From assembly GCF_003312875.1 (NCBI RefSeq), contig NZ_CP015163.1:3162001-3226000 (forward strand): a stretch of 64,000 nt of DNA, in the 5' to 3' direction. The stretch's first letter is position 1. Each line of letters begins with the position of its first letter. Positions 34,545-52,105 of this stretch are shown here, piece by piece. A program made the translations under genes and the position numbers. The notes beneath the pieces were generated by a model. The model made no database searches. It was not told the DNA's origin and worked only from the letters and a program-made list of their open reading frames with translations. This stretch comes from Amycolatopsis albispora (GTDB lineage: Bacteria > Actinomycetota > Actinomycetes > Mycobacteriales > Pseudonocardiaceae).

Positions 34545-35445
34545 TGGTGACCGGGCGCCCCGGGTCGGCACCGCGGTGCAGGCCGGGCGGGTCCTCGGGG
34601 TCGCGCGGGAACCCGGCGGCGGCCAGTTCCTCGGTGACGTCGGCGTTCGCGGTGAGCCGCAGGTCGATCACGTCGGGTGCCTCGGTGCCCGGTTCGGCGG
34701 TCGGCCCGATGTGCTCGATGTTCTCGCCCTTGGGCCCGACGGCCGCGCGCACCCGCGCGATCACCCGCTCGGCCTGCACCGGCCAGGTGTCGTCGTGGGG
34801 CACCGGCTTGAGCGAGGGCAGCGGGCGCACCCGCCGCAGCCGGACGTTCGCCTCGTACGGCACGATCCGGTCGGCCCACAGCGCATCCACTTCGGACAGC
34901 ACGATGTCCGGCGCGCCGCCGTTGTCCAGCCACACGTCGGCGACCAGGCGGCGCTGCTCGGGGCTGGCCTGTGCGGCGATCCTGGCGCGCGCGTCGGCCT
35001 CGGCCATGCCGCGCGACTCGACCAGCCGCCGCACCCGCACCTCCGGGTCCGCGTCGACCACCAGCACCAGGTGGTAGTGCGCGGCGAGGCCGTTCTCCAC
35101 CAGCAGCGGCACGTCGTGCACCACGATGCCGTCGGCGGCGGCCTGGCCCATCAGCTCGGCGGTGCGCGCGCCCACCCTCGGGTGCACGATCGCGTTGAGC
35201 TTGCGCCGCGACTCGTCGTCGGCGAAGGCCTTGGCGGCCAGCGCCGGGCGGTTGAGCGAGCCGTCGTCGGTCAGCACGTCCTCGCCGAACGCGGCGACCA
35301 CCTCGGCCAGGCCGTCGGTCCCCGGCTCCACCACCTCGCGCGCGATGCGGTCGGCGTCGATGACCAGCGCCCCGTGCTCGGCGAGCCGGGTCGCCACCGT
35401 CGACTTGCCCGCCCCGATCCCGCCGGTCAGCCCCACACGCAGCAT
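34531..35445 (-). CDS. coaE: Dephospho-CoA kinase with truncated GrpB-like tail
   Basis: 304 residues from ATG 35445. CoaE phosphorylates dephospho-CoA, the last step of CoA synthesis. Features are the P-loop [32 protein letters not shown] and the [10 protein letters not shown] segment. The family core ends near residue 200. The rest resembles the GrpB/UPF0157 domain fused to mycobacterial CoaE ([20 protein letters not shown] then IDLRLTAN) but stops about 100 residues early, so the domain looks incomplete. It lies in the typical uvrB-coaE-rpsA neighbourhood. Confidence 0.93.
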
Positions 35446-35582
35446 GGCCGCATTCAACCAGCTCGCTCGCGGTACCACCGTGAGTGGTCGTTACCGAACC
35501 GATTTGGGTGACACGCCGCGCGACTACGCCGGATTCGCGGCCACGTTGCGTACGGTGCCGGTGATCGATCGACGGAGGGAAG

Positions 35583-35841: not shown

Positions 35842-36477
35842 ATGGCGGCACGGGAGAGCGCGGCGCGGTCGGCCGCCGAGACCAGGGAGCGCTTCCTGCG
35901 CGCCGCCGTCCGCGTGCTGGCCGAGCAGGGCGTCGGCGGGCTCACCGTGCGCAACCTCGCCGAAGCCGCCGGCTCCTCCACGATCGGCGTGTACAGCCGC
36001 TTCGGCGGGCGCGCGGGAGTGCTGGACGCGCTCTACGAACGGGCCTTCGAGCAGCTGGACGCCGCCTTCGCCGCGCTGCCGCCGCGCTCGGGTGACCGCG
36101 CGCGGGACCTGCTCGACCTCGCGCTGGCGTACCGGCGGTTCGCGCTGGAGAACCCGGCCAGGTACGCGTTCATGTTCGAGCGCCCGGTGGCCGACTTCGA
36201 CCCGGATCCGGCGCTGCGGCTGAGCGTGCTGCGTTCCGGGTTCACCCACGTGGTTGACCGCGCCAGCCCGCCGGGTGCCTCCGATGAGGACGCCCGGCGG
36301 TACTCCTATCTGCTGTGGACGACCATGCACGGGCTGATCAGCGTGGAGCTGACCAATGCCGCGCGCAGCCCGCTGCCCGGCTGGTTCGTCGGCCAGGACG
36401 AGGCCGCGCGCGAGCAGGTCTACCGCGAAGGCGTCCAGGCCATCACCGCCGGGCTGGACGCCCGGTTCTCGGTGTAG
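35842..36477 (+). CDS. TetR-family regulator with WHG-type C-terminal domain
   Basis: 211 residues. The N-terminal TetR HTH is LTVRNLAEAAGSSTIGVYSRF followed by GGRAGVLDALYERAF. The C-terminal ligand domain (PARYAFMFERPV, LLWTTMHGLISVEL) matches the TetR_C_33/WHG group common in actinobacteria. It lies directly upstream of the lipid-PKS operon and has the same direction, 310 bases away. It could regulate that operon or only itself. Confidence 0.88.
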   Translation: MAARESAARSAAETRERFLRAAVRVLAEQGVGGLTVRNLAEAAGSSTIGVYSRFGGRAGVLDALYERAFEQLDAAFAALPPRSGDRARDLLDLALAYRRFALENPARYAFMFERPVADFDPDPALRLSVLRSGFTHVVDRASPPGASDEDARRYSYLLWTTMHGLISVELTNAARSPLPGWFVGQDEAAREQVYREGVQAITAGLDARFSV

Positions 36478-36564: not shown

Positions 36565-36604
36565 GCTTGCCGAGCACTTGGCCGCCGCTTGGCTGCCGCT
36601 TGAC
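36565..36604 (+). promoter_or_regulatory. Four 11-bp-phased CTTG heptamers, candidate SARP binding site
   Basis: GCTTGCC (36565), ACTTGGC (36576), GCTTGGC (36587) and GCTTGAC (36598) are spaced exactly 11 bases apart, one helical turn. SARP activators (ActII-ORF4, DnrI, AfsR) bind direct heptamer repeats with this spacing next to the promoter they activate. The site lies upstream of the lipid-PKS operon and a SARP gene closes that cluster at 50270-52105. Confidence 0.7.
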
Positions 36605-36620
36605 CCGCAGGTCAGCACCG

Positions 36621-36649
36621 TTGACGCGGTGGCCAAGGCCAACCTAAAT
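36621..36649 (+). promoter_or_regulatory. Putative promoter of the lipid-PKS operon
   Basis: TTGACG at 36621-36626, a 17-base spacer, then CTAAAT at 36644-36649. The hexamers are fair matches to a housekeeping sigma promoter. It lies 17 bases after the last SARP-type heptamer and about 140 bases before the PKS start. SARP sites usually overlap the -35, so a second promoter closer to the repeats is possible. The 310-base gap 36478-36787 otherwise holds only the RBS GAGGA at 36776-36780. Confidence 0.5.
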
Positions 36650-36787
36650 TGACCCGGCATCACACTTTTGAGTTCATCGCCGCCACTCACGAGTGATGCT
36701 TTCGGCGGAAAATCGGCACGGACCGGCACAGCGGGTCACGTCCAGCAGGTCACCCCCCAAGCACTGGCGAACACTGAGGAATTTACG

Positions 36788-39700
36788 GTGAATTCGGTGA
36801 ATACCCGATCGGCGGCCGGCCTCGTCCTCGCACTGGGCCCCCGCGGCTTTTCCGGCGCCCGGCTCGTCGCCGCGGCGTGCCAGGCAGGCGCGCTCGGCGT
36901 GCTGGAACTCGGGGCGCGGGCCCGCGAAGAACTCGACCGCGTGGCCGAATGGACCTCGCGCGAGTTCGGCGTGCGCCCGGTCGCCGGGTGCGGCCTGCGG
37001 CCGGCAGATCTGCCCGAGCGGGCCCGCACGGTGGTGATCGGCGCGGATTCGCCTTGGGAGATGGGGGAAATCCCCAGTGGTCTCCAGGTACTGGCCGAGG
37101 TGACCAGCCTCGGTGAGGCCGAGCGGGCGATCGCGGCCGGGGCACACGGGCTGATCGCCCGCGGCCACGAATGCGGTGGCCCGGTCGGCGAACTGAGCAC
37201 CTTCGTCCTGCTGCAGCGGCTGGTCGCGGCGACGGACCTGCCGGTGTGGGCCTGCGGTGGCATCGGCCCGCGCACCGCGGTCGCGGCGATGGTGGGTGGC
37301 GCGGCCGGGGTGGTGCTCGATTCCCAGCTCGCCCTGCTGCCCGAAACCGGATTGCCCGCCGGAATCGCCGCGGCGGTGCGGGGAATGGACGGTTCGGAGA
37401 CCACCGTGGCCGACGGCCGCCGCGTGCTCAACCGCGGTGGGCACACCCTGGAAATCGGCCAGGACGGATTTCTGGCGAAAAAGTTCGCGGATCGCTGGGG
37501 CACCACACGCGCCGCGATTCGCGGAATTCGCGAAGCCGTGAAAAGTGTAAAAGTCGAGTACGACGCGAAATTGCCGATCGCGCAGGGACCGATGACCCGG
37601 GTGAGCGATCGCGCCGGTTTTGCCGTTTCCGTCGCCGAAGCCGGCGCACTGCCGTTCGTCGCGCTCGCGCTGTCCGGCCGCGACCAAACCCGCGAACTGC
37701 TGGAACAGACCAAGGCCGCGATCGGCGACCGGCCGTGGGGCGTCGGCGTGCTCGGATTCGCGCCGGAGGAGACGCGCTCCGCGCAGCTCGAAGCCGTGCG
37801 TGAGCTGCGGCCGACACACGCGATCGTGGCCGGTGGCCGTCCCGCGCAGGCGAGCGCGCTGGAGGCCGACGGCATCCGCACCTACCTGCACGTGCCCTCC
37901 CCCGGCCTGCTGGCCCAGTTCCTGCGCTCGGGCGCGCGCCGGTTCGTCTTCGAGGGCTCCGAATGCGGTGGTCACGTGGGGCCGCGCACCAGCTTCCCGC
38001 TGTGGGAGGCGCAGTTGGACACCCTGCTGGAGGCCGGTGACCTGGACGGCGTCGAGGTCTACTTCGCCGGCGGCATCCACGACGAGCGCTCGGCGGCGAT
38101 GGTGGCCGCGATGGCCGCGCCGCTGACCGCCCGCGGCGCGAAGTTCGGCGTGCTGATGGGCACCGCGTACCTGTTCACCGAGGAGGCCGTCGGCCACGGC
38201 GCGATCCTGCCCGCGTTCCAGCGCGAGGTGGTCGCCGCGACCGGCACCGCGCTGCTGGAAACCGCGCCGGGCCACGCCACGCGCTGCGTGCGCAGCCCGT
38301 TCACCGAGGACTTCACCGGCATCCGCGACCGGCTGCGTGCCGAAGGCGTGCCGGACAAGCAGGCGTGGGCCGAGCTGGAGCAGCTCAACGTCGGCAGGCT
38401 CCGCCTGGCCAGCAAGGGCATCGAGCGCGTCGGCGCCGAGCTGCGCGAGGTCGGCGAAGACCGCCAGCTCGCCGAGGGCATGTTCATGGCCGGTGAAGTC
38501 GCGGTGCTCCGGTCGTCGGTGACCACGCTCGCGCGACTGCACGAGTCCGTGAGTTCGGGCGCGGCGGACTTCCTGGCCGAGAGCGCGGGGCGGTTGCGTG
38601 GTGAGGACGCCCCGAAGCCCGCGGCCAAGCCGCTGGACGTGGCGATCGTCGGCATGGCGGGCATGTTCCCCGGTGCCGCCGATCTCGCCGAGTTCTGGGC
38701 GAACGTGCTGAGCGGCACCGACTCGGTCACCGAGGTGCCGCCGCACCGCTGGGATCCCGCGGTGCACTACGAATCCGGCGCCAGCAAGTCCAAATGGGGC
38801 GGTTTCCTGCCCGAGATCCCGTTCGACCCGCTGCGGTACGGCATTCCGCCCGCGTCGCTGGGCAGCATCGAGCCGGTGCAGCTGCTCGCGCTGGAAGCCG
38901 CGCGGCGCGCGCTGGACGACGCCGCGCTCGGCTCGTTCGACCGCACCCGCACCTCGGTGGTCTTCGGCGCCGAGGCGGGCAGCGACCTGTCCAACGCGGC
39001 CACCCTCGGCGCGGTCCTGCCGTCCTATGTGGACCAGGTGCCGCCCGCGCTGGCCGGTCAGCTGCCGGAGCTGACCGAGGACTCCTTCCCCGGCATGCTG
39101 GCGAACGTGATCGCCGGTCGCATCGCGAACCGGCTCGACCTCGGCGGCGCGAACTACACCGTCGACGCCGCGTGCGCCTCCTCCCTCGCCGCGCTCGACG
39201 TGGCGTGCAAGGAACTGGTCGCGGGCACCAGCGACGTGGTGCTGTGCGGTGGCGCCGACCTGCACAACGGGATCAACGACTACGTGCTGTTCTCCTCGGT
39301 GCACGCGCTCTCGCCGACCGGCCGGTCCCGCACCTTCGACGACTCCGCCGACGGCATCGCGCTCGGTGAGGGCGTGGCCTGCCTGGTCCTCAAGCGACTG
39401 TCCGATGCGGAACGTGACGGCGACCGGATCTACGCCGTGGTCAAGGGGGTGGGCAGCGCCAGCGACGGGCGGTCGCTCGGGCTGACCGCGCCCCGGCCGG
39501 AGGGCCAGCGCGCGGCGCTGGAGCGCGCGTACACCTCGGCGGGCATCTCCCCGGCGGCGGTCGGGCTGGTCGAGGCACACGGCACCGGGACCGTGGTCGG
39601 TGACCGCACCGAGCTGACCACGCTGACCAGCGTGTTCACCGAGGCGGGCGCCGAGCCGTCGAGCTGCGCGCTCGGCTCGGTGAAGTCGCAGATCGGGCAC

Positions 39701-42700
39701 ACCAAGTGCGCGGCGGGGCTGGCCGGGCTGATCAAGGCGGCACTGGCGCTGCACACCGGGGTCAAGCCGCCGACGCTGCACGTGACCAAGCCGAACGCGG
39801 CGTGGCAGGCGGAAACCAGCCCGTTCGAGTTCCACGCTTCGCCGAGCCCGTGGGCCTCATCCGAGCGGATCGCCGGGGTCAGCGCGTTCGGCTTCGGTGG
39901 CACCAACTTCCACGCGGTGCTGACCGCGCACCACGACGGCCCGCCGCCACGGCACACCCTGGACGCCTGGCCGGCCGAGCTGTTCCTGTTCCGCGATCCC
40001 GCCGACGCGGAAAAGCTGCTGGAGCAGGCGCGGTCCGGGCGCTGGCGGCTGCGGGACCTCGCGCTCGTCGCGGCGCGCCGGTCGGACACGCGCCCCGGGC
40101 CGGTCCGGATCGCCGTGGTCGCGAGCAGCGTCGGTGAGCTGATCTCGCGGCTGAGCGAGCCCGCGCCCGAACCGCCGGTCACCGGGGAGGTGGCGTTCCT
40201 GTTCCCCGGGCAGGGCAGCCAGAAGCCCGGCATGCTCGCCGAACTCTTCGTCCACTTCCCGGAACTGCACCGGTACCTCCGTCTCGGCGAGCGGTGGCTG
40301 CGGGAGTTGTTCCCGCCCGCGGACTTCGACCGCGACGCGGCCGCCGCCCGCAAGGCCGCGATCACCGACACCCGGGTCGCGCAGCCCGTGCTGGGCATCG
40401 CCGGGCTCGCGGTCGCCGAGCTGCTGGCCCAGGCGGGCGTCCGGCCCGCGATGACCGCCGGGCACAGCTACGGCGAGCTGGTCGCGCTCAGCGTCGCGGG
40501 CGCCATCGATCCGGCGACCCTGCTGGAGCTGTCCGCCGCCCGCGCCGAGTCGATCCTGGCCGCGGCCGGGGACGATCCCGGCACGATGGCGGCCGTGTCC
40601 GCCGGTGCCGACGAGGTCGACGCCGCGCTCGCCGGGCTCGGCACGGTGGTCACCGCGAACCGGAATTCCCCGGCGCAGACGGTCATTTCCGGGCCGACGG
40701 CCGAAGTGGGCAAAGCCATCACGATCCTGCGCGAGGCCGGGTTCAGCGCGAAGCGCATCCCGGTCGCGTGTGCCTTCCACAGCCCGGTGGTGGCCGGCGC
40801 GGAAAGCCGGTTCGCCGAAGTACTGGCGCAGCACCAGATCGGCGCGCCCACCCGGCCGGTGTGGTCGAACCGCACGGCGAGCGAGTACCCGGCGCGGCCG
40901 GACGCGATCCGCGCCGAACTGGCCGCGCAGATCGGCGCGCCGGTGCGGTTCGCCGAGCAGATCGAGGCGATGTACGCGGCGGGCGCCAGGATCTTCGTCG
41001 AAGCGGGGCCCGGCTCGGTGCTCACCAAGCTGACCGCGGCCGTGCTCGGCGACCGTCCACATCAGACGGTAACCTGCGACGGCGGGTTGCGAGGCTTCCT
41101 CGAAGCACTGGCCAAGCTCGCGCTCGCCGGGGCGGACGTCACCGCGAGCCACCTGTTCGACGGCCGTGAAGCGGTGACCGAGCCGCCCGTGAAGCGTCCT
41201 GGGTGGACGGTCGACGGGCAGCTGGTGCGGACCGCCGACGGCAGCATCCCGGCGGGCGCCCTGCGGCCCGCCACCCGAGTCCAGCTAACCAGCAAGGAGA
41301 CGTCAGTGACCGGACCGGACGCGCTCATCGCCGAATTCCTGCGCAGCAGCCGCGAAATGGTCGCGGCGCAGCGTGACGTGCTGCTCGGGTACCTCGGCAC
41401 GCAGCAGGGCGTGCCCGCCCTGCCCGCGCCGGTGCTCCCGGTCCCGGAACCGGTTCAGGTCGCCGCCGTTCCCCAGGTCCAGGCCGCACCCGAACCCGCG
41501 CCCGCCGGTGAGGTGGACGTGATGCGGGCCGTCGTCGAGATCATCGGCGACCGCACTGGTTACCCGGCCGACATGATCGAGCCGGAGCTGGACCTGGAAG
41601 CCGATCTGAGCGTGGACTCGATCAAGCGGGCCGAGATCGCCGGTGAACTGGCGGTGCGCCTCGGCCTGAACTCCGGATCCGACGAGGAACTGGAGGAGCT
41701 GTCCAAGGCGCGGACGGCGGCCGCCATCGCCGGACTGCTCGAAGCCAAGCTGTCCGGGAACAGCACCCCCGCCACGGAATCGACACCCGAACCGGAACCC
41801 GAAGGCGGCGTCGCGCCCAAGCGGTTCGAACTCGTGCCCGCCGCACTGAACGGCACCCCGGCGGCCCCGGAAAGGCTGGCGGGCCGGTCCTTTCGTGTCC
41901 TCGGCGGTGGCGCCCACGCCGACCGCCTGACCGCACTGCTCACCAAGAGCGGCGCCGAACCCGCTGACTCCACTGTGGACCTACTGGTTCACCTCGATGC
42001 GTTCACCGGCGTGGATCCCCTGTTCCCCGAAGCCTTCGCCACCTTCCGTGAAGCACTTGCCGGGCAGCCGGGCACGCTGATCACCGGAGTCCCCGCCGGG
42101 CTGACCGAGCGCACCGACGGCCTGCGCGGCTTCTTCCGCACCCTGGCCCGCGAGTATCCGGAGAGCACGATCCGGCTGGTCGAGATCGACGGTGAGGACC
42201 CGGCCGAGGCGGTCCTGCGCGAACTGCTCACCGATGAGGGCGCGCCGGTGGTGCTGCGCTCGGCGGAGGCGCGGCAGTCGCTCGAACTGGTGGAAACCCC
42301 GCTGGGCCTGCTCGGCTCCACCGGCGCCGGGCCCGCCGGGGACGGTGCCGCCGAGGCCGCCGCGCTCGGGCTGGACGCCGACTCCGTGGTGCTGCTCGTC
42401 GGCGGTGGCCGGGGCATCACCGCGCACTTCGCCGAAACGCTCGCCGCGGCAAGCCGGTGCCGGATCGAGCTCGTCGGCCGCACGGTGCTGCCCACCGCGC
42501 CGGAGGACCCGGCGACCGCGGGCGCGGTCACACTCGCCGAGTTGCGGGGCGCGCTCGCCGCACCGGGCCGCACCCCGGCCGAGATCGACCGCGAGGCCAA
42601 CCGCCTGCTCGCCCAGCGCGAAGTCGCCGCCACCCTGGCGAAACTGGCCGAACTGGGCAGCCCCGCCCGCTACCACGCGCTCGACGTCCGCGACGCCGAA

Positions 42701-43213
42701 GCCGTGCACCGGCTGGTCAAGGAGGTCCACACCGAGCACGGCAGGCTCGACGGGCTGGTCTACGCGGCGGGCGTGATCGAGGACAAGCTGCTCGCCGAGA
42801 AGGACCCGGAGTCCTTCCGCCGGGTCTTCGACACCAAAGTGGACGGTGCGAAGGCGCTGCTGGCGGCCGGGACCGAACTGCCGGTGGCGCCGCGGTTCGC
42901 GGTGTTGTTCGGCAGCATCGCCGCCGTGCTCGGCAACCGCGGCCAGTGCGACTACGCGGCGGCGAACGACGCGCTCGAAGCCATCGGCCGCCGGTGGTCC
43001 ACTTCGGAGCGCCGCGCGCTGACCGTCCACTGGGGACCGTGGGCACCCGGCGGCAGGCACGGCGGCATGGTCTCCCCCGAGCTGATGCGTTCCTACCAGC
43101 GGCGCGGGATCGGGCTGATCGACCAGGAAGAGGGCGCGCTCGCCCTGCTGCGGGAACTGGCCTGGGGCGAGGATTCGGCGCGGTCCGTGGTCTACAGCGC
43201 CTCCGGGTGGTGA
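36788..43213 (+). CDS. Multidomain lipid/polyketide synthase: NMO-NMO-KS-AT-ACP-KR
   Basis: 2141 residues from GTG 36788, placed by GAGGA 7 bases upstream. In order: a short NMO/2-nitropropane-dioxygenase-like barrel (about 10-200, RGHECGG at 126-131, CGGIGP at 156); a fuller second one (about 255-530, IAQGPMTRVS, EGSECGGHVG at 389-398, VLMGTAYLFTEEA); KS (about 615-1045) with Cys796, His931 and His971; AT (about 1130-1420) with GHSYGE Ser1227 and AFHSP His1331; one ACP with LSVDSIKR (Ser1611); and KR (about 1680-2141) with GGGRGI, FGSIAA and CDYAAAN. The NMO type is the enoyl reductase of PfaD, here fused N-terminally and doubled. All catalytic residues checked are present. Likely an iterative chain builder. 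Product unknown. Confidence 0.93.
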   Translation: MNSVNTRSAAGLVLALGPRGFSGARLVAAACQAGALGVLELGARAREELDRVAEWTSREFGVRPVAGCGLRPADLPERARTVVIGADSPWEMGEIPSGLQVLAEVTSLGEAERAIAAGAHGLIARGHECGGPVGELSTFVLLQRLVAATDLPVWACGGIGPRTAVAAMVGGAAGVVLDSQLALLPETGLPAGIAAAVRGMDGSETTVADGRRVLNRGGHTLEIGQDGFLAKKFADRWGTTRAAIRGIREAVKSVKVEYDAKLPIAQGPMTRVSDRAGFAVSVAEAGALPFVALALSGRDQTRELLEQTKAAIGDRPWGVGVLGFAPEETRSAQLEAVRELRPTHAIVAGGRPAQASALEADGIRTYLHVPSPGLLAQFLRSGARRFVFEGSECGGHVGPRTSFPLWEAQLDTLLEAGDLDGVEVYFAGGIHDERSAAMVAAMAAPLTARGAKFGVLMGTAYLFTEEAVGHGAILPAFQREVVAATGTALLETAPGHATRCVRSPFTEDFTGIRDRLRAEGVPDKQAWAELEQLNVGRLRLASKGIERVGAELREVGEDRQLAEGMFMAGEVAVLRSSVTTLARLHESVSSGAADFLAESAGRLRGEDAPKPAAKPLDVAIVGMAGMFPGAADLAEFWANVLSGTDSVTEVPPHRWDPAVHYESGASKSKWGGFLPEIPFDPLRYGIPPASLGSIEPVQLLALEAARRALDDAALGSFDRTRTSVVFGAEAGSDLSNAATLGAVLPSYVDQVPPALAGQLPELTEDSFPGMLANVIAGRIANRLDLGGANYTVDAACASSLAALDVACKELVAGTSDVVLCGGADLHNGINDYVLFSSVHALSPTGRSRTFDDSADGIALGEGVACLVLKRLSDAERDGDRIYAVVKGVGSASDGRSLGLTAPRPEGQRAALERAYTSAGISPAAVGLVEAHGTGTVVGDRTELTTLTSVFTEAGAEPSSCALGSVKSQIGHTKCAAGLAGLIKAALALHTGVKPPTLHVTKPNAAWQAETSPFEFHASPSPWASSERIAGVSAFGFGGTNFHAVLTAHHDGPPPRHTLDAWPAELFLFRDPADAEKLLEQARSGRWRLRDLALVAARRSDTRPGPVRIAVVASSVGELISRLSEPAPEPPVTGEVAFLFPGQGSQKPGMLAELFVHFPELHRYLRLGERWLRELFPPADFDRDAAAARKAAITDTRVAQPVLGIAGLAVAELLAQAGVRPAMTAGHSYGELVALSVAGAIDPATLLELSAARAESILAAAGDDPGTMAAVSAGADEVDAALAGLGTVVTANRNSPAQTVISGPTAEVGKAITILREAGFSAKRIPVACAFHSPVVAGAESRFAEVLAQHQIGAPTRPVWSNRTASEYPARPDAIRAELAAQIGAPVRFAEQIEAMYAAGARIFVEAGPGSVLTKLTAAVLGDRPHQTVTCDGGLRGFLEALAKLALAGADVTASHLFDGREAVTEPPVKRPGWTVDGQLVRTADGSIPAGALRPATRVQLTSKETSVTGPDALIAEFLRSSREMVAAQRDVLLGYLGTQQGVPALPAPVLPVPEPVQVAAVPQVQAAPEPAPAGEVDVMRAVVEIIGDRTGYPADMIEPELDLEADLSVDSIKRAEIAGELAVRLGLNSGSDEELEELSKARTAAAIAGLLEAKLSGNSTPATESTPEPEPEGGVAPKRFELVPAALNGTPAAPERLAGRSFRVLGGGAHADRLTALLTKSGAEPADSTVDLLVHLDAFTGVDPLFPEAFATFREALAGQPGTLITGVPAGLTERTDGLRGFFRTLAREYPESTIRLVEIDGEDPAEAVLRELLTDEGAPVVLRSAEARQSLELVETPLGLLGSTGAGPAGDGAAEAAALGLDADSVVLLVGGGRGITAHFAETLAAASRCRIELVGRTVLPTAPEDPATAGAVTLAELRGALAAPGRTPAEIDREANRLLAQREVAATLAKLAELGSPARYHALDVRDAEAVHRLVKEVHTEHGRLDGLVYAAGVIEDKLLAEKDPESFRRVFDTKVDGAKALLAAGTELPVAPRFAVLFGSIAAVLGNRGQCDYAAANDALEAIGRRWSTSERRALTVHWGPWAPGGRHGGMVSPELMRSYQRRGIGLIDQEEGALALLRELAWGEDSARSVVYSASGW

Positions 43214-46200
43214 GCGACGTGACGCCCGTGGCCATCGTCGGCATGTCGGTCCTGCTGCCCGGCGCGCCCGACCTGGCCACCTACTGGCGCAACATCACCG
43301 GCGGGGTCGACGCGATCAGCGAGGTGCCCGGCGGACGCTGGGAATCCGACGACGCCGAGGTCTACTGCCGACGCGGTGGTTTTGTCTCCGGCGCCGAGAT
43401 CGACGTGACCCGGTTCGGGATCATGCCGAACTCGGTGCCCGGCACCGAACCCGACCAGCTGATCGCGCTCCGGGTGGCCGCCGAGGCGCTCGCCGACGCG
43501 GGCGGCAGCCTGCCGGACCGGCAGCGCGCAGGGGTGATCCTCGGCCGCGGTGGTTACCTCACGCCCGGCCTCGTCCGGCTCGACCAGCGCGTGCGCACCG
43601 CCCAGCAGCTCACCCGCACGCTCGGCGAACTGCTGCCGGAGCTGGGTTCCGACCAGCTGGACCGCGTGCGTTCGGCGTTCACCGACGCGCTCGGCCCGCA
43701 CTCCCCCGAGTCCGCGATCGGCCTGGTGCCGAACCTCGCCGCCTCCCGGGTGGCGAACCGGCTCGACCTGCGCGGCCCGGCGTACACAGTGGACGCCGCG
43801 TGCGCGTCCTCGCTGATCGCGGTGGACCACGCGGTGCGCGAGCTGGCGAGCGGCCGGTGCGACCTGATGCTCGCGGGCGGTGTGCACCACTGCCACGACA
43901 TCACCCTGTGGAGCGTGTTCTCCCAGCTCAAGGCGCTTTCCCCGAGCGAGCGCATCCGCCCGTTCCACCGCGAGGCCGACGGCATCCTGATCGGTGAGGG
44001 CACCGGGGTGGTGGTGCTCAAGCGGCTGGCCGACGCGCAGCGCGACGGCGACCGGATCTACGCGGTGATCCGCGGGTGCGGGGTGGCCAGCGACGGCCGC
44101 ACCGCCAGCCTGGTCAACCCGGACTCCGGCGGCCAGGTCACCGCGGTGCGCGCGGCCTGGCGGCAGGCCGGCCTCGATCCGGCGTCGATCGGCCTGCTGG
44201 AGGCGCACGGGACGGCCACCCCGGCCGGGGACGGCGCCGAACTGGCCACGCTCGCCGAGGTGTTCGGCCCGGCCGACGGCCCGCGCGCGGTGCTCGGCTC
44301 GGTGAAGTCGATGATCGGGCACACCATGCCGGCCGCCGGGGTGGCCGGGCTGGTCAAGGCCGCGCTGGCGGTCTACCACGGTGTGCTGCCGCCCACCCTG
44401 CACTGCGACGACCCGCACCCCGGCTTGGCGGACACCCGCTTCCGGACCACCGGCCAGCCCGAAGAATGGCCGGGCCACCGGCTGGCGGGCGTGAACGCGT
44501 TCGGCTTCGGCGGCATCAACGCCCACGTGGTGCTCGAACAGGCCGGTGAGGCCAAGCCGGTGGTCGAAGTCCGCGAGCCGGAACGCACCCTGCGCCTCGC
44601 CGCGTCCACTGTGGACGAGCTGGCCCGCGCGCTGGACGGCGACCCGGTGACCGGCGGCAGCGGCCCGGTCCGGCTGGCGATCGCTGACCCGACGCCGAAA
44701 CGCCTGGCCGTGGCGAGGAAGGCGGTCGCCAAGGGCAAGCCGTGGCGTGGCCGCAACGACATCTGGTTCACCCCGGAGCCACTGCTGTCCGGCGGCGGCA
44801 AGATCGCGTTCATCTTCCCCGGCCTGGAAGCCGAGTTCGAACCGCGGGCCGACGACGTGGCCGCGCACTTCGGCCTGCCGTGGTCGGCACCGGACGCCTC
44901 GGTGCTCGGCGGGCACGGCGCCGGGGTCTTCCAGCTGGGCAGGCTGCTCGACACCGCGCTGCGCCGGATGAACGTGGTCCCCGACGCGGTGGCCGGGCAC
45001 AGCGTCGGGGAATGGACCGCGATGGCCTGCGGTGGCATCTACGACAAGTCCGCTGTGGACGAGTTCCTCGGCTCCTTCGACCCCGCCGGGTTGCGCGTGC
45101 CGGGGTTGGCCTTCGCGGTCATCGGCACGTCGGCCGAGCGCGTCGCCGAAGCGCTGCCGCCGGAAGTGGTGCTGTCCCACGACAACGCGCCGAAGCAGGC
45201 GATGGTCTGCGGCCCGGCCGAACCGGTGGGCGAGCTGGTCCGGACCATGCGCGCGGCCGGGGTGATCAGCCAGGTGCTGCCGTTCCAGTCGGGCTTCCAC
45301 ACGCCGATGCTGGAGCCGTACCTCGGCCCGATCCGCGCCGCCGCCGACCGGTTCGAGCTGCACCCGCCGCGGGTCCCGGTCTGGTCGGCGACCACCGCGG
45401 CGGAGTTCCCGGCCGCGCCGGAGCGGGTGCGTGAGCTGTTCGTCCGGCACCTGCTCGAACCGGTGCGGTTCCGGCCGATGATCGAAGCCATGCACGCGGC
45501 CGGGTTCCGCGCCTTCGTCCAGCTGGGCGCGGGCCAGGTCGGCTCGCTGATCGGTGACACGCTCGCCGGGGCGCCGCACCTGGTGGTGGCCGCGAACTCG
45601 GCCAAGCGCTCCGGCCTCGCGCAGCTGCGCCGGGTGGCGCTGGCGTTGTGGACCGAAGGCGAGCAGCCCGATCTGCTGGAACGCCGGCCCGGGGTACCGA
45701 TCGACCTGGACACCCCGCCGGTACGCCTCGGCGGCTCGGTCCGCCTGGACGTCGGCCGCGGGGAATCCACTTTGGACAGGTTCGCGGACTCCTCCCCCAT
45801 CGCCGCCGAGCTTTCCGCGTTGATGCGGGAGACCGCGAACACCGCGGCCGAACTGCTCGCCGTGCGCAAGCCGCCCGTGCTCCGCGTGTCGGTGGACGAG
45901 ATGCCGTACCTGGCCGACCACTGCTTCTTCCGGCAGCGCGAAGACTGGCCGGAGCTGGAGGACCGCTGGCCGATCGTGCCGGCCACCACGGTGATCCACC
46001 ACCTGATCGAGTTCGCCGAGCGGGCGGTGCCGGGCACCCGCGCGATCGGCGTGCACGACGTGCACCTCTCGCGCTGGCTCGCCGCCATCCCGGCCACCGA
46101 GATCCCGGTGTCGGTCCAGGTGACCGCGCCCGGCCGGGTCGCGGTGGAACTCACCGGGTACGCCCGCGCCGTGGTCGAGCTGGCCACCGGCTACCCGGCA

Positions 46201-47070
46201 CCGGGCGCGCTGTGGCGGCCGGGTCCCGAGCGCGCGCCGGAGATGACCGCGGCCCAGCTGTACGAAGAGAACTGGATGTTCCACGGCCCGCGCTACCAAG
46301 GGGTTTCGGAGCTGACCGCGATCGGCCCCGCGCACGTGCGCGGCGTGTTGACCACGCCGCCCGCACCGGGCGCGCTGCTGGACAACGTGGGCCAGCTGCT
46401 CGGTTACTGGATCATCGCGCACCACCCGGAGCGGGACGTGGTGTTCCCCGTCCACATGCGGCAGATCCGGTTCTTCGGCCCGCACCCGGCCACCGGCGAG
46501 CGGCTGGACTGCCACCTCCGGATCACCGCGCTCACCGAGTCCACTTTGGATGCCGACGTGCAGCTGTCGGCGGGCGGCAGGCTGTGGGCCGAGATCACCG
46601 GCTGGCGTGACCGCCGGTTCGACAGCAGCCCGCACACCCGCTCGGCCGACCGCTTCCCCAGCCGCAACACGCTGTCCGTGCCGGACGACGGCGGCTGGGT
46701 GGTGCTGCGCGAGCAGTGGCCGGACCTGGCCTCGCGTGAGCTGATCATGCGCAACCACCTCGGCAAGACCGAGCGGGCGGACTACGAAGCGGTGCCACCA
46801 CGGGAAAAGCGGCAGTGGCTGCTGCGGCGGATCGCGATCAAGGACGCGGTGCGGTGGTGGCTCTGGAACCGCGGTGAGGGCGAGCTGTTCCCCGCCGAAA
46901 TCCAGGTGATCGACGAGCACACGGTCATCGGGGCACACGGCCGCGTGCTGCCGCCGCTGACCATCGGCGTGGCGGGTCACGGCACCACCGCGGTGGCCAT
47001 GGTCGACCCGGGCGGCACCGCGCTGGACCGGATCGCCGCGCAGGCGGCGGAGGAAGGAGCAGGCGTATGA
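43210..47070 (+). CDS. PfaC-like synthase: KS-AT-DH with C-terminal PPTase-like domain
   Basis: 1286 residues from GTG 43210 overlapping the first synthase stop. KS (about 5-430): Cys198 in DAACASS, His333 in EAHGTAT, His371 in GHTMPAA. AT (about 535-800): GHSVGE Ser598 and GFHTP His697. DH (about 890-1140), double hot-dog: YLADHCFF with His904 and LLDNVGQLLGYW with Asp1058. The last ~110 residues (REKRQWLLRRIAIKDAVRWW with Lys1211, then LFPAEIQVIDEH) look like the phosphopantetheinyl transferase domain that ends enediyne and PUFA synthases. If active it would arm the operon's own ACPs. No ACP or KR here, so it must act with the first synthase or the discrete ACP. Confidence 0.9.
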   Translation: MSDVTPVAIVGMSVLLPGAPDLATYWRNITGGVDAISEVPGGRWESDDAEVYCRRGGFVSGAEIDVTRFGIMPNSVPGTEPDQLIALRVAAEALADAGGSLPDRQRAGVILGRGGYLTPGLVRLDQRVRTAQQLTRTLGELLPELGSDQLDRVRSAFTDALGPHSPESAIGLVPNLAASRVANRLDLRGPAYTVDAACASSLIAVDHAVRELASGRCDLMLAGGVHHCHDITLWSVFSQLKALSPSERIRPFHREADGILIGEGTGVVVLKRLADAQRDGDRIYAVIRGCGVASDGRTASLVNPDSGGQVTAVRAAWRQAGLDPASIGLLEAHGTATPAGDGAELATLAEVFGPADGPRAVLGSVKSMIGHTMPAAGVAGLVKAALAVYHGVLPPTLHCDDPHPGLADTRFRTTGQPEEWPGHRLAGVNAFGFGGINAHVVLEQAGEAKPVVEVREPERTLRLAASTVDELARALDGDPVTGGSGPVRLAIADPTPKRLAVARKAVAKGKPWRGRNDIWFTPEPLLSGGGKIAFIFPGLEAEFEPRADDVAAHFGLPWSAPDASVLGGHGAGVFQLGRLLDTALRRMNVVPDAVAGHSVGEWTAMACGGIYDKSAVDEFLGSFDPAGLRVPGLAFAVIGTSAERVAEALPPEVVLSHDNAPKQAMVCGPAEPVGELVRTMRAAGVISQVLPFQSGFHTPMLEPYLGPIRAAADRFELHPPRVPVWSATTAAEFPAAPERVRELFVRHLLEPVRFRPMIEAMHAAGFRAFVQLGAGQVGSLIGDTLAGAPHLVVAANSAKRSGLAQLRRVALALWTEGEQPDLLERRPGVPIDLDTPPVRLGGSVRLDVGRGESTLDRFADSSPIAAELSALMRETANTAAELLAVRKPPVLRVSVDEMPYLADHCFFRQREDWPELEDRWPIVPATTVIHHLIEFAERAVPGTRAIGVHDVHLSRWLAAIPATEIPVSVQVTAPGRVAVELTGYARAVVELATGYPAPGALWRPGPERAPEMTAAQLYEENWMFHGPRYQGVSELTAIGPAHVRGVLTTPPAPGALLDNVGQLLGYWIIAHHPERDVVFPVHMRQIRFFGPHPATGERLDCHLRITALTESTLDADVQLSAGGRLWAEITGWRDRRFDSSPHTRSADRFPSRNTLSVPDDGGWVVLREQWPDLASRELIMRNHLGKTERADYEAVPPREKRQWLLRRIAIKDAVRWWLWNRGEGELFPAEIQVIDEHTVIGAHGRVLPPLTIGVAGHGTTAVAMVDPGGTALDRIAAQAAEEGAGV

Positions 47071-47354
47071 GCACCGAGCGGATCCTCGCCGAGATCAGCG
47101 AGATGATCGAGGTGGTGCTGGCCGACTACGGCACCGGTGACGTGGAGATCGGGATGGACACCCGGTTCACCGATGACCTCGAGATGGAGAGCATCGACCT
47201 GGTGGCGCTGGCCGGGCAGCTCGAGGAGCGCTACGGCGGCCAGGTCAACTTCGCCGAGTTCATCGCCGGGCTGGAGCTCGACGAGATCATCGAGCTGACC
47301 GTCGGCGCGCTGGTGCGGCACGTGGAAGGCTCGCTCGTGGGGGCGGGCCGGTGA
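47067..47354 (+). CDS. Discrete acyl carrier protein
   Basis: 95 residues from an ATG overlapping the previous stop. The 4'-phosphopantetheine site is LEMESIDLVAL with Ser42, in an acidic four-helix ACP fold (FTDDLEMES, EERYGGQVNF). It is less like the first synthase's ACP (LSVDSIKR) than like type II ACPs. It probably carries a starter, an extended chain or a product intermediate for the hydrolase and tailoring enzymes that follow. Confidence 0.92.
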   Translation: MSTERILAEISEMIEVVLADYGTGDVEIGMDTRFTDDLEMESIDLVALAGQLEERYGGQVNFAEFIAGLELDEIIELTVGALVRHVEGSLVGAGR

Positions 47355-48133
47355 AGCTGACCGCGAACGGCATCGGCGTGCACGTCCAGCGGCTGGGCGA
47401 CCCGGACGGCGCGCCGGTGGTCTTCCTGCACGGCCTGGGCACGGACAGCCTGGCCAGCTACTACTTCACGCTCGGCCCGGCGTTCGCCGCGGCCGGGCAC
47501 GACGTGGTGATGTACGACCTGCGCGGGCACGGCCGCAGCGAGCGGCCGCCGAGCGGGTACCAGCTGGAGACCTTCGTCGACGACCTCACCGCGCTGCTCG
47601 GCGAGCTGGCCGTGACCGGGCCGGTGCACCTGGTCGGCAACTCCTTCGGCGGCACCATCGCGTTCGGCTTCGCGGCGCGGCTGCCGGAGCGCGTGGCGTC
47701 GGTGACCATGATCGAATCGGAACCCGCCACCGCGGCGTGGGCGGCGAAGATGGCGGTGAACCTCGGCCGGGCGCGCGAGCAGCTGGCCGAGGAAGCGGCC
47801 TTCGAGTGGATCACCGCGAACCACGGCGCGCACACCAGCAGGCTGGCGCGGTCGGCCGGGAAGGTGCTGCGCTCCAGCACGCTCGCCGACGACATCCCGG
47901 CCAGCGCGGTGCTCGCGCCCGGCGACATCGCCGCGGTGACCGCTCCGGTGCTGGCGATCTACGGCGCCGAGTCCGATCTCGCCGAGCAGGCCCCGGTGCT
48001 GGCCGGGCTGCTGCCGGTCTGCCGGACCGTGGTGGTGCCCGGCCAGCGGCATTCGGTGCTGGTGGAGCGGACCGAGCTGACCAGGGGCCTGGTGCTGGAC
48101 TGGGTGCGCGAGCACACGCTGGTGCAGGCGTGA
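47351..48133 (+). CDS. Alpha/beta hydrolase, probable chain-release or editing enzyme
   Basis: 260 residues from GTG 47351 overlapping the ACP stop. Alpha/beta-hydrolase triad: nucleophile GNSFGG (Ser98), GAESD (Asp209) and GQRHSV (His234), with oxyanion HGLGTDS. Directly after an ACP gene and with no thioesterase domain in either synthase, it is the best candidate to release the acyl chain or to load it on an alcohol. It could instead be an editing hydrolase. No signal peptide, so cytoplasmic. Confidence 0.87.
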   Translation: MKLTANGIGVHVQRLGDPDGAPVVFLHGLGTDSLASYYFTLGPAFAAAGHDVVMYDLRGHGRSERPPSGYQLETFVDDLTALLGELAVTGPVHLVGNSFGGTIAFGFAARLPERVASVTMIESEPATAAWAAKMAVNLGRAREQLAEEAAFEWITANHGAHTSRLARSAGKVLRSSTLADDIPASAVLAPGDIAAVTAPVLAIYGAESDLAEQAPVLAGLLPVCRTVVVPGQRHSVLVERTELTRGLVLDWVREHTLVQA

Positions 48134-49260
48134 GCCGGTTCCTCCTGGTGGTGCCGCCCCTGGTGGGCCACGTCAACCCGGTGGTCGGGGTGGCCGCCGA
48201 GCTGGTCCGCCGCGGGCACGAGGTGGCGTGGGCCGGGCACGGTGAGCTGATCACCCGCCTGGCCGGGGCCGCGCACGTCTACGACTGCGCCCTGCCGCCC
48301 GCCACCCCGCGACCGCCCGAGCTGCGGGGTGCGGCGGCGCTGAAGTTCCTGTGGGAAGAGGGTTTCCTGCCGCTGGCCGAGTCGATGGCACCGGGCGTCG
48401 AAGCGGCGATCGAGCGGTTCCGGCCGGACGCGCTGCTGGTCGACCAGCAGGCGGTGGCCGGTGGACTGATCGCCGACCGCCTCGGGCTGCCGTGGCTGAC
48501 CTCGGCCACCACCTCCGCCGAGCTGACCGACCCGCTCGCCTCGATGCCCAAGGTGCGCGACTGGGTGCTCGAGCGGCTCGCCGCGCTGCGCGCGTCGATC
48601 GGCGACCCCGACGGCAGCACCGATCCCCGGTTCTCCCCGCACGGCGTGCTGGCCTTCACCACCGCGGAACTGGCGGGCGAGATGCGCGGTGTCACCTTCG
48701 TCGGGCCGTCCATCGGTGATCGGGAGTCCGAAGTGGACTTCCCATGGGATTGGCTGGACCACCGGCCCACCGTGCTGGTCACCCTCGGCACCGCCAACGT
48801 CGACGCCGGTGCCCGGTTCCTCACCGAATGCGCGGCCACCGGGATACGGGCCGTGGTCGCCGATCCGGCCCGTGTGCTGTCCACTTCGGACACCGTGTTG
48901 CCGCTGCCGCACGTGCCGCAGCTCGACCTGCTGCCCAAGATGGACGCGGTGGTCTGCCACGGCGGGCACAACACCGTCTGCGAGGCGCTCTGGCACGACC
49001 TGCCGCTGGTGGTCGCGCCGATCCGGGACGACCAGCCGGTGATCGCCGAGCAGGTGGCCGAGGCGGGTGCTGGCGTCCGCGTGCGCTTCACCAAGGCCAC
49101 CGCCGAGCACCTGCGGGTGGCGATCAGCACCGTGCTCGACCCCGGCAGCGGCATGCGGGCCAACGCGGCCCGGATCGGCCGGTCCTTCCGCGCGGCCGGT
49201 GGCGCCGCCGCGGCCGCGGCCCAACTGGAAGCCCTGATCACGGCGGGAGTGCACGCATGA
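48130..49260 (+). CDS. UGT/MGT-type glycosyltransferase (GT1)
   Basis: 376 residues from GTG 48130 overlapping the hydrolase stop. The N-terminal FLLVVPPLVGHVNPVVGVA and the C-terminal donor motif VVCHGGHNTVCEALWHDLPL with PIRDDQPVIAEQV are typical of macrolide and carotenoid/lipid GT1 enzymes using UDP- or dTDP-sugars. In this operon it should glycosylate the released lipid. No deoxysugar genes are in the window, so a common UDP-sugar is likely. Confidence 0.9.
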   Translation: MSRFLLVVPPLVGHVNPVVGVAAELVRRGHEVAWAGHGELITRLAGAAHVYDCALPPATPRPPELRGAAALKFLWEEGFLPLAESMAPGVEAAIERFRPDALLVDQQAVAGGLIADRLGLPWLTSATTSAELTDPLASMPKVRDWVLERLAALRASIGDPDGSTDPRFSPHGVLAFTTAELAGEMRGVTFVGPSIGDRESEVDFPWDWLDHRPTVLVTLGTANVDAGARFLTECAATGIRAVVADPARVLSTSDTVLPLPHVPQLDLLPKMDAVVCHGGHNTVCEALWHDLPLVVAPIRDDQPVIAEQVAEAGAGVRVRFTKATAEHLRVAISTVLDPGSGMRANAARIGRSFRAAGGAAAAAAQLEALITAGVHA

Positions 49261-50300
49261 CCGAAATCGACCGGCTGCGGCCGGTTTACCAGGCGGATCT
49301 CGCCGGCGGGCTGGACCGGTTCTTCGAGCCGCGTGCCACGCGGTGCCCGTGGTGCTCGTCCGAGCGGCTGTCGGTCCGGCTGCGCACGCGGGACTTCCTG
49401 CAGCACAAGCCGGGCCGGTTCACGCTCGAGCAGTGCCGCGACTGCACGCACATCTTCCAGAACCCGCGGCTGAACGCGGCCGGACTGGAGTTCTACTACC
49501 GCGACTTCTACGACGGTCTCGGGGAAAAGCAGCTGGCCGGGCAGTTCGAGGGGCGCGGCAAGACCTATCTCGACCGGGCTCGGGCGGTCTCCGGCTTGGT
49601 GGAGCCGTCGAACTGGCTGGACGTCGGCACCGGGCACGGCCACTTCTGCGAATCCGCGCGCGAGGTGTTCCCGGAAACGCGGTTCGACGGGCTGGACCTC
49701 AGCGAGGGCGTGAAGCTGGCCGAGGAACACGGCCGCGTGGCCACCGGGTACCGCGGGCTCTTCGCCGAACTGGCCGGGGACCTGGCGAACACCTACGACG
49801 TGGTCAGCATGTACCACTACCTGGAGCACAGCACAGCACCGCAAGCCGAACTCGACGCCGCGCACCAGGTGCTGCGCGACGGCGGTCACCTGGTGATCGA
49901 GGTGCCCGATCCCGAGAGCCGCTACGCCCGGCTGCTCGGCCGCCGCTGGCTGCCGTGGCTGCAGCCGCAGCACCTGCACTTCGTGCCGCTGGCGAACCTG
50001 CGGCAGCGCCTCGAATCGCTCGGCTTCACCGTGGTGCTGGAGCAGCGCGCCGAGGCACACGACCCGATCGACCTGGTGGCGGCGGCCTGGCTCACGCTCG
50101 ACGACCTCGCCCCGCGTGAGGACGCGCCGTGGCACCCGCGCCCGCCCGGCCGGTTCCGCCGAATCGCCCGCGGCGGCGTGCTGCTGGCCGGGGCGCTCGG
50201 TGTGGTGCTGGCCGCGGTCGCCGACCGGCTGGTGCGCCCGTTCGCCGGTCGCGCGCGGTTGTCGAACGCCTACCGGATGGTGGCACGCAAGGAATCGTGA
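49257..50300 (+). CDS. Zinc-ribbon class I SAM methyltransferase with C-terminal membrane helix
   Basis: 347 residues from ATG 49257 overlapping the GT stop. N-terminal Cys30, Cys33, Cys60 and Cys63 form a zinc-ribbon-like module (CPWC, CRDC) as in sugar or lipid methyltransferases such as those acting on dTDP-sugars. The SAM motif is LDVGTGHGHF near 113-122, with LDLSEG next. A hydrophobic stretch LLAGALGVVLAAVADRLV near 305-322 suggests membrane attachment. It should methylate the product's head group or sugar. Its 3' end overlaps the convergent SARP gene by 31 bases. Confidence 0.86.
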   Translation: MTEIDRLRPVYQADLAGGLDRFFEPRATRCPWCSSERLSVRLRTRDFLQHKPGRFTLEQCRDCTHIFQNPRLNAAGLEFYYRDFYDGLGEKQLAGQFEGRGKTYLDRARAVSGLVEPSNWLDVGTGHGHFCESAREVFPETRFDGLDLSEGVKLAEEHGRVATGYRGLFAELAGDLANTYDVVSMYHYLEHSTAPQAELDAAHQVLRDGGHLVIEVPDPESRYARLLGRRWLPWLQPQHLHFVPLANLRQRLESLGFTVVLEQRAEAHDPIDLVAAAWLTLDDLAPREDAPWHPRPPGRFRRIARGGVLLAGALGVVLAAVADRLVRPFAGRARLSNAYRMVARKES

Positions 50301-52105
50301 GCCTCCTGCGCGCGTTCGCCAATGGCCAGCGCGGCCAGCCGGATCAGCGGGTGCATGCGATAGGTGAAGTAGCCGCTGCCCGGCTGCGGGCGGTTCTCCT
50401 CGACCTCGATCAGCTGCAGTTCGACCAGCTGCTCCAGCCGGGACTCCGCGGCGCGCTCGCCGATCAGGCAGGCGCGGGCGAACTCCGGCACCGACACCGC
50501 GGTGCTGAACAGGCCCGCGAACCGCTGGAAGGCGTCCGCCTGGTCGGCGTCGAGCAGCGCCGAGGTGCGTTCCACGCTGGCGAGCAGGTCGAGCCTGCCC
50601 GCGGTCAGCTCGCCGAGGCGGTCCCCCGGCGCGCGCAGGCGCGCCACCACGCGTGAGATCGACCAGTGCGGCCGCAGCGCCAGGCGGGTCGCCGCGCCGA
50701 TCAGCGCCGCGGGCAGTCCACCGCACAGTTCGGCCAGTTCGCGCGCGGCGTCGGGTTCGCGTTCCACCTGCGTGCCGATCATGGATTCCAGCAGCCGCAG
50801 GGAGTCCTCGCCGGTCAGCGGGCGCAGCGCCACCGCCAGCCCGGCCGGGTCGGCGATGCGGCGGCGGCAGCCGGCGAGCACCGCGCTGCCCTCTCCGCCG
50901 GGCAGCAGCAGGTTCAGCTGCTGGGCGGCGGTCACGTTGTCCAGCACCACCAGCATGCGTCGGCGGGCGGTCCAGCTGCGGAACAGGTCGGCCCGCTCCT
51001 GTTCGCTGGCGGGCAGCCAGCAGTCCGGGCCGCGGATCGCACGCAGGAACCCGGCCAGCACCTCGGCCGGTGACTCGTGGGCCAGCAGGTCCGCGTACAG
51101 CTGACCGTCCGGAAAGGACTCCCGCACCTGGTTCGCCACGTGCGCGCAGAGCGTGGAGGTGCCCACCCCCGGCCCGCCGGCCACGGTCACCACGGCCAGC
51201 TTCGACGCCGCCCGCAGCTCGGCGGTGATCCGCTCGGCCTCGGCGCCGCGGCCGATCACCTCGACCGGGTCGGGCAGCAGCTGCGCGGGCGGGTGCCACC
51301 ACGACTTGGCGCGGCGGATGCTGGTGGTGCCCGGTGGCTGGTCGGGCTTGACCTCGCCGTCGAGCAGGTCCTGGTGCAGGCGGCGGGTGGAGGCGCTCGG
51401 CTCGAGGCCGAGCTGGTCGATGAGGTCGGCACGCAGGCGCTGGAACACGCTCAGCGCCTCGGAACGCATGCCGGAGCGGTGCAGCGCCAGCATGAGCTTG
51501 GCGTGCAGGCCTTCGTGCGTCGGGTATTCCTGCACCAGCACACGCAGTTCGCCGATCAGGTCGAGGTGGCGGCCGAGCACCAGGTCGACCTCGATGCGCT
51601 GCTCCAGCACGGCCGCGCGTTCCTGGCGCAGCCGGGCCACGTGCGGGGCGAGGACTTCGCCGGGGTCGAGGTCGCACAGCGGGCCGCCGCGCCATTCTTC
51701 GAGCGCGCCGCGGAAGGCGGCCGAGGCTTCTTCGAGGCGCCCGGCGTCCAGTTCGGCGCGGCCGGAGCGGGCCAGCTCGGTGAAGCGCGCGATGTCGAGC
51801 GTGTGCTCCGGGAGGTTCAGCGCGTAGCCGACGCGGGGCCGGTGGACCACGGTGCCGCTGGCCGAGCGCGGTTCGCCCGCCAGCATGCGGCGGATGTTGG
51901 AGACGTAGACCTGGAGGGTGGTGCTGGCCTTCGGGGGCGGGTTGGCGCCCCACAGCTCGGCGCGGAGCTGCTCGGTGCGGACGACCTTGTTCCAGTTGAC
52001 CGCGAGAAGGGCGAGGAGCTGGCGCACCTTGGGCTGCGAAGGCGTGACCAGGAGGCCATCACGGACGACCTCGAGCTCGCCGAGAACCCGCACGCCGACA
52101 GTCAT
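50270..52105 (-). CDS. SARP-family transcriptional activator with NB-ARC-like module
   Basis: 611 residues. The N-terminal winged helix (VRVLGELEVVRDG to LQVYVSNIRRML) is the OmpR-like DNA-binding domain of SARPs, followed by the BTAD domain (about 100-245, ELRVLVQEYPTHEGLHAKLM) and an AfsR-type NB-ARC region. The P-loop reads GGPGVGTSTL with Thr316 where Lys is expected, so ATP binding may be lost or altered; LVVLDN remains. No TPR tail is seen. It converges on the lipid-PKS operon and is its likely pathway-specific activator. Confidence 0.9.
   Translation of the reverse strand: MTVGVRVLGELEVVRDGLLVTPSQPKVRQLLALLAVNWNKVVRTEQLRAELWGANPPPKASTTLQVYVSNIRRMLAGEPRSASGTVVHRPRVGYALNLPEHTLDIARFTELARSGRAELDAGRLEEASAAFRGALEEWRGGPLCDLDPGEVLAPHVARLRQERAAVLEQRIEVDLVLGRHLDLIGELRVLVQEYPTHEGLHAKLMLALHRSGMRSEALSVFQRLRADLIDQLGLEPSASTRRLHQDLLDGEVKPDQPPGTTSIRRAKSWWHPPAQLLPDPVEVIGRGAEAERITAELRAASKLAVVTVAGGPGVGTSTLCAHVANQVRESFPDGQLYADLLAHESPAEVLAGFLRAIRGPDCWLPASEQERADLFRSWTARRRMLVVLDNVTAAQQLNLLLPGGEGSAVLAGCRRRIADPAGLAVALRPLTGEDSLRLLESMIGTQVEREPDAARELAELCGGLPAALIGAATRLALRPHWSISRVVARLRAPGDRLGELTAGRLDLLASVERTSALLDADQADAFQRFAGLFSTAVSVPEFARACLIGERAAESRLEQLVELQLIEVEENRPQPGSGYFTYRMHPLIRLAALAIGERAQEAHDSLRATIR

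Follow-up and report, generated by a model that had tools for sequence, protein, structure and literature searches.

Ars-related synthases in a conserved actinobacterial gene cassette and their proposed product, a glycosylated long-chain lipid

In the genome of Amycolatopsis albispora (9.12 Mb, a single contig) six plus-strand genes, joined by five overlaps of exactly 4 bp each and followed by a convergent gene for a SARP regulator, encode two multidomain synthases, an acyl carrier protein (ACP), a hydrolase, a glycosyltransferase (GT) and a methyltransferase (MT). The locus raises the question which of the known synthases these two, named A and B here, are related to and what the six proteins make together. 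We analyzed a window of 64,000 nucleotides around it (contig NZ_CP015163.1, 3,162,001 to 3,226,000), to which all positions below refer unless another locus is named. The nearest kin of the synthases are those of the Ars type rather than the eicosapentaenoic acid (EPA) synthases, and with this a known but uncharacterized family gains a product hypothesis. We give somewhat better than even credence to the proposal that an actinobacterial family of fatty acid synthases (FAS)/polyketide synthases (PKS), iterative type I enzymes related to ArsA and ArsD, makes a glycosylated long-chain lipid and has a member in the window. The six genes are:

36788..43213, plus strand: synthase A (2141 amino acids) with a degenerate first NMO domain (NMO1), a second, enoyl reductase-like one (NMO2), ketosynthase (KS), acyltransferase (AT), one in-line ACP and ketoreductase (KR); from Pfam, motifs and the alignment with ArsA.
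43210..47070, plus strand: synthase B (1286 amino acids) with KS, AT, a PKS-type dehydratase (DH) and the remnant of a phosphopantetheinyl transferase (PPTase); from Pfam, motifs, an AlphaFold2 (AF2) model with its PDB matches and the alignment with ArsD.
47067..47354, plus strand: free-standing ACP (95 amino acids); PP-binding, 28.3 bits.
47351..48133, plus strand: alpha/beta-hydrolase (260 amino acids), proposed release enzyme (thioesterase/esterase-like); from Pfam, AF2 model and PDB matches.
48130..49260, plus strand: GT1 glycosyltransferase of the macrolide glycosyltransferase (MGT) family (376 amino acids); from TIGR01426, UDPGT/EryCIII-like Pfam families and sequence matches to structures.
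49257..50300, plus strand: class I S-adenosylmethionine-dependent methyltransferase (347 amino acids); PF13489/Methyltransf_23, 93.4 bits.

An earlier, sequence-only reading of the locus had described these six overlapping genes and the convergent SARP gene, and both coordinates and Pfam bear it out. For synthase A it had given the order NMO-NMO-KS-AT-ACP-KR, and Pfam returned the same domains (NMO in two stretches, KS, AT, PP-binding, KR), with the motifs C/H/H (KS), GHSYG and AFHS (AT), DSI (ACP) and YAAAN (KR). The two NMO domains are not alike, however, since NMO1 is degenerate and has GGP; the GGH motif, the histidine of which is catalytic in FabK, is found in NMO2 alone. In the homologues of A from Beijerinckia and Methylosinus the first NMO likewise has no GGH and the second has it. 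The start of A is more likely at 36788 than at 36668, because in the orthologue at locus L009 (91% identity) the earliest start codon aligns with this position.

With the ArsA homologue from Beijerinckia synthase A aligns at 42% over 1577 columns, which cover both NMO domains and share the GG-X/GGH pattern, and residues 900-1280 of B align with the ArsD homologue from Beijerinckia at 27% over 428 columns. The genes of these two homologues lie on a plasmid, where they enclose two type III PKS-like genes. Beijerinckia is listed under Type P, with the alkyl chains of phenolic lipids as product, in the part of the survey of Shulse and Allen (2011; PMC3098273) that deals with it; in the corresponding passages of another paper ArsA from Azotobacter is said to make C23-C25 fatty acids and ArsD is called a PPTase (PMC4824345). 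By sequence comparison, no named protein is closer to A than ArsA (Type P); PfaA is not the nearest. This kinship also fits the small number of ACPs, as the survey cites the ars cluster to show that a fatty-acyl pathway can do without multiple ACPs (PMC3098273); the single in-line ACP that had been noted before was found again in the window. Among A proteins the number varies: that of the window has a single one, those of L010 and L015 have two each and that of L023 has three.

We calculated a KS tree of 71 rows (LG+C20 PMSF), from which partial modular KS, two weaker matches of locus L026 and the partial KS of L140 had been dropped beforehand. The PfaA-like and PfaC-like rows come from plasmids and were labelled by their architecture, two of them after a check (KS-KS-two FabA). 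All 24 A-type KS fell into one clade (100/99), which was joined to three Ars-like plasmid rows at 99/97, and 23 B-type KS formed a separate clade (97/95) together with one reduced KS-AT protein. Both types stood apart from the modular, PKSE, FabF and PfaC rows. The assignment to the secondary-lipid synthases, already made in the sequence-only reading, has thus survived a phylogeny (HglE not among its rows) that placed A and B outside the modular and enediyne clades.

In synthase B Pfam found KS (motifs C/H/H) and AT (GHSVG). Pfam did not report the DH of the window's B, but among 12 B proteins that were aligned it matched PS-DH in 7; the active-site motifs of this DH (DH and LLDN..Q) are intact alongside the KS, AT, ACP and KR motifs of the two synthases. 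When the C-terminal part of B was modelled together with 27 relatives (AF2; mean predicted local distance difference test score, pLDDT, 91.3), PKS dehydratase domains were the best PDB matches (5bp3, E 3e-15). Of the arrangement KS-AT-DH-PPTase-like that had been proposed for B, the first three domains hold, whereas the PPTase has shrunk to a truncated remnant: PF01648, matched in 5 of the 12 aligned B proteins, is absent from the window's B, and the motifs GID.E and W..KE[AG] are both missing. Loss of W..KE[AG] is common in the family, since 10 of 28 aligned B tails are without it and 18 have kept it (a stricter count by regular expression, 63 of 126 loci, was not relied on). With the PPTase of B truncated, the ACPs would have to be activated by one from elsewhere.

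The cassette is widespread. Counting the host genome, relatives of B were found in 53 of the 100 nearest genomes at 1e-100 (a set that includes G066, the locus of which, L026, is not of the cassette family) and, at 1e-250, in 62 of 150 genomes of the host's family and 50 of 394 of its class. In one other family, presumably the Frankiaceae, 31 of 35 genomes were positive at 1e-150. We examined 126 loci, 122 of them distinct (four pairs are the same strain twice), and kept L025 and L026 in the denominators. The KR part of A immediately precedes B in 120 of the 122 loci that extend far enough upstream. Of the 94 loci with room on both sides, 88 have the order A-B-ACP-hydrolase-GT, so that the arrangement is more than chance. 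An MT homologue was found in 50 of the 95 loci that extend far enough downstream, in 42 of these 50 at most 273 bp from the GT. The prediction of a glycosylated and methylated lipid is upheld in its first half, the coupling of synthase and glycosyltransferase; methylation is not general.

In the hydrolase the alpha/beta-hydrolase pattern is intact, and the best PDB matches of its AF2 model (pLDDT 95.9) are esterases and lactonases. The GT scores 162 bits with TIGR01426, less than the curated cut-off (260 bits), and by sequence it matches structures of the OleI/YjiC type. In the MT two CxxC motifs are found near the N-terminus and one hydrophobic stretch near the C-terminus (19-residue mean hydropathy 2.1); the stretch agrees with the membrane tether suggested earlier, and the tethering itself is plausible.

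The pathway that we propose is as follows. AT-A and AT-B would load malonyl units and KS-A would extend the chain, and if KR, the DH on B and NMO2 reduce it in every cycle, A and B would together form a single iterative synthase, divided between two proteins and fully reducing, in the manner of ArsA with ArsD. KS-B, in which the Cys-His-His motifs are seen, might catalyze a condensation of its own, possibly the final one or the final two, and the unit or units that it adds may escape full reduction, leaving a hydroxyl group. The chain would then pass to the free ACP and be released by the hydrolase as acid or ester. The GT would add a hexose. Its donor is probably a common UDP-sugar, as the window genes scanned (32,724-56,664) included none for deoxysugars. 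The MT would cap sugar or chain. We infer both the full reduction of the chain and the points at which sugar and methyl group would be attached.

Several observations weigh against the proposal of an Ars-related synthase with a glycosylated lipid as product. In the KS tree the joins deeper than the node uniting A with the Ars-like rows are weak (PfaA-like rows 83/41, PKSE 83/83), and the Ars-like row L136 and the PfaC rows have long branches. The function of ArsA was established for the Azotobacter protein, whereas A was compared with that of Beijerinckia. The in-line ACP of A is a weak Pfam match (22.1 bits), and A itself remains, with 835 bits, below the 1010-bit cut-off of TIGR02813, the best NCBIfam family for both A and B. 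The matches of the hydrolase are generic esterases. Since macrolides, too, are glycosylated by MGT enzymes, the GT may have a non-lipid acceptor. Exceptions to the five-gene order are L023, L025, L026, L086, L088 and L100; the Streptomyces loci L086 and L088 have no hydrolase match, L023 and L100 no GT match. With a type III PKS from Beijerinckia as query, matches among the 12 loci searched were obtained only in L134 and L135 themselves, and the analogy to Ars therefore ends at the chain. A genome that we take to be Saccharopolyspora erythraea also carries the cassette. This species is listed under Type H in the pertinent part of the 2011 survey (PMC3098273).

In another reading the synthase would make a polyketide that is not a lipid, e.g., a glycosylated lactone, with the hydrolase as cyclizing enzyme and the GT acting as a macrolide-type enzyme. 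MGT as best family of the GT, the intact hydrolase with its esterase and lactonase matches and the separate clade of the B-type KS all agree with such a product, which we nevertheless regard as unlikely, given the single reductive set, the lack of modular organization and a fatty acid synthase as kin of A.

It is less probable still that the chain is handed over directly to an enzyme for a shared head group encoded elsewhere, as ArsA does to the type III PKS, and that ACP, hydrolase, GT and MT act on the conjugate. The kinship with ArsA and the free ACP adjoining the synthase speak for the hand-over; neither a type III PKS gene nor any other head-group gene was found among the window genes scanned, and the conserved gene order adds none.

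That the cassette encodes a synthase of polyunsaturated fatty acids (PUFA), similar to those for EPA or docosahexaenoic acid, as the cluster in Streptomyces coelicolor was annotated, is very improbable. TIGR02813 as best family is in its favor, and yet B reaches even less of the cut-off (421 bits) than A. PUFA synthases (Types A and B) have four to six tandem ACPs (4-6), the window one in-line ACP and the 12 aligned proteins up to three; they have a pair of KS and chain length factor (CLF) and two DH on one protein, whereas B is KS-AT-DH with Cys-His-His and no KS-CLF pair is present. The DH is of the PKS type and not of the FabA type, of which the Pfa-like reference proteins carry two domains, and KS-B stands apart from the KS and CLF of PfaC.

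Decay or silence of the cluster in this strain, to which the truncated PPTase and the occurrence of cassette plus MT at this locus in only one other, close relative might point, hardly deserves credence, as A and B have intact motifs and no internal stop, a 93% relative shows the same truncation with open frames, and loss of W..KE[AG] is, as said, frequent.

The genes that flank the cassette in the window are:

34531..35478, minus strand: coaE, dephospho-CoA kinase with a GrpB domain, left flank, outside the operon; from Pfam and the spacing to rpsA.
35842..36477, plus strand: TetR-family regulator upstream of the operon; from Pfam.
50270..52105, minus strand: SARP regulator (BTAD, Trans_reg_C, NB-ARC), candidate regulator of the operon; from Pfam.
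53158..54993, minus strand: rpsA, ribosomal protein S1, right flank, outside the operon; from Pfam (S1, four stretches).

The start codon of rpsA is probably further in, homologues aligning mostly from residue ~90 on. From coaE to rpsA the distance is 17.7 kb in the window and 17.0 kb in a 91-93% identical relative (G004), and in the other 33 genomes of the genus with both genes on one contig it is 0.54-3.66 kb. The cassette is an addition between coaE and rpsA in this lineage; relatives in the genus carry it elsewhere. Among the genomes of the genus are loci identical at B to records of Amycolatopsis rifamycinica, A. antarctica, A. anabasis and A. marina, and G020, G025 and G031 belong to those with two cassette paralogues, of which one has a B ~67-70% and the other a B ~53-54% identical to the window's B. 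All six genes in the same order are found on plasmids of Streptomyces sp. NBC_01243 and NBC_00984 (L044, L045), which are linear, larger than 800 kb and typed as mobilizable; transposase genes of IS3 (both) and IS6 (one) are nearby. At L025 (G029, ~9151-12931) an 849-amino-acid KS-AT protein is followed directly by a GT, with no matches to A, ACP or hydrolase beside them; this is a reduced relative of the cassette. The SARP gene overlaps the end of the MT gene convergently and probably regulates the operon. SARP homologues adjoin the cassette also in L009, L029 and L159; in L159 (G497, 14386-16245) the convergent homologue (38%) ends against the cassette GT as in the window.

Genomes that we take to be those of Frankia alni ACN14a, CcI3, EuI1c and Actinosynnema mirum also carry the cassette, ACN14a and EuI1c presumably in two copies; from these presumed identities, and not from its domain layout, the window's cassette is probably a member of Type M, because Frankia and A. 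mirum are listed there without a product. The Type H listing of S. erythraea, mentioned above, is a reservation. The list gives Actinosynnema mirum, Frankia, Renibacterium and S. avermitilis as organisms of Type M (PMC3098273). A PPTase in direct proximity, a feature of Type M, is present in most aligned relatives (18 of 28) and truncated in the window; a KS within the secondary-lipid synthases, another feature, is found in A. Doroghazi and Metcalf (2013; PMC3848822) described a type I PKS that was retained by every Frankia strain in their comparison and occurs in duplicate in EuI1c and ACN14a, the strains to which two cassette copies were assigned above; the passages on it name no product. 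The nodule-abundant polyketide synthase FRAAL4072 (PMC8951365) could not be tied, from the part of the paper concerned, to either cassette copy and was not used as a link to the Frankia symbiosis. The passages on vesicles in two other papers (PMC5745019; PMC12501873) name hopanoid genes and not this cluster.

In the open-licence papers searched, no product has been described for a syntenic cluster, which agrees with its earlier designation as orphan, although the family is widespread and has been listed since 2011. Through the ties of A to ArsA and of B to ArsD, together with the fixed set of ACP, hydrolase and GT, what was an "unknown PKS" now comes with a prediction that can be tested, namely that it makes a glycosylated long-chain lipid. 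With its six genes and with coaE and rpsA as borders, the copy in the window lends itself to transfer or deletion.

As to other known systems, modular PKS were rejected because the KS of A and B did not group with the modular rows, and enediyne PKSE, a single KS-AT-ACP-KR-DH protein, because the plasmid copy of SgcE and a PKSE-like protein of the host form their own KS clade (100/100). The latter protein (L143, 7954001-7970000; ORF 6130-12147, plus strand) has 2006 amino acids with KS-AT-KR-DH, and its KS groups with SgcE of C-1027 in this enediyne-type clade. The sequence-only reading had also drawn a parallel to SCO0124-SCO0129 of S. coelicolor, which is not supported: by the description in the survey that strain belongs to Type L, the defining feature of which is a fused KS-CLF-DH2-AT protein (PMC3098273). 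Type L (SCO0126-SCO0127) is likewise a secondary-lipid synthase, with EPA as product by annotation only; it has a separate 5' pfaD, whereas in the window NMO is fused to A, and B, with KS-AT-DH, does not have the fused layout. A parallel of hydrolase and GT1 to RhlA/RhlB of rhamnolipid synthesis, a functional analogy, is not claimed, since no kinship was seen.

The heterocyst glycolipid system combines a long-chain synthase with the glycosyltransferase HglT for the head group, as described in the relevant passages of PMC11804610, and both components are common to it and the cassette; the two are likened here by gene set. The hglE-KS regions that antiSMASH reports in Amycolatopsis, in the section concerned of PMC11004387, may be putative clusters like that in the window. 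It is a rather remote thought that actinobacteria have in the cassette an equivalent of the heterocyst system: an Ars-like synthase, split over A and B, and a UDP-sugar glycosyltransferase would provide a long-chain glycolipid for the envelope of specialized cells, these being spores or aerial hyphae here and the nitrogen-fixing vesicle or spores in Frankia. If true, heterocyst glycolipids and the phenolic lipids of cysts would be joined by a third envelope lipid, one that was assembled independently; if made in Frankia, the lipid would bear on what vesicle or spore envelopes contain besides hopanoids.

The closest comparison is that with the Ars FAS (Type P; arsABCD of Azotobacter, pBIND02 of Beijerinckia). 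An Ars-like pair on a plasmid of Rhodobacteraceae bacterium SC52 (L136, 7993-22612) encloses genes for a TauD/TfdA dioxygenase and a methyltransferase and no type III PKS gene; this gene set is another head-group variant. The window differs from the Ars FAS in having no type III PKS, an extra KS-AT on B, the addition of ACP, hydrolase and GT (and MT) and a truncated PPTase. In common are the collinearity of A with ArsA (two NMO, KS, AT, ACP, KR), the homology of the C-terminus of B to ArsD (DH-PPTase) and the shared KS clade, and in the ars cluster of Beijerinckia, too, a glycosyltransferase gene is nearby.

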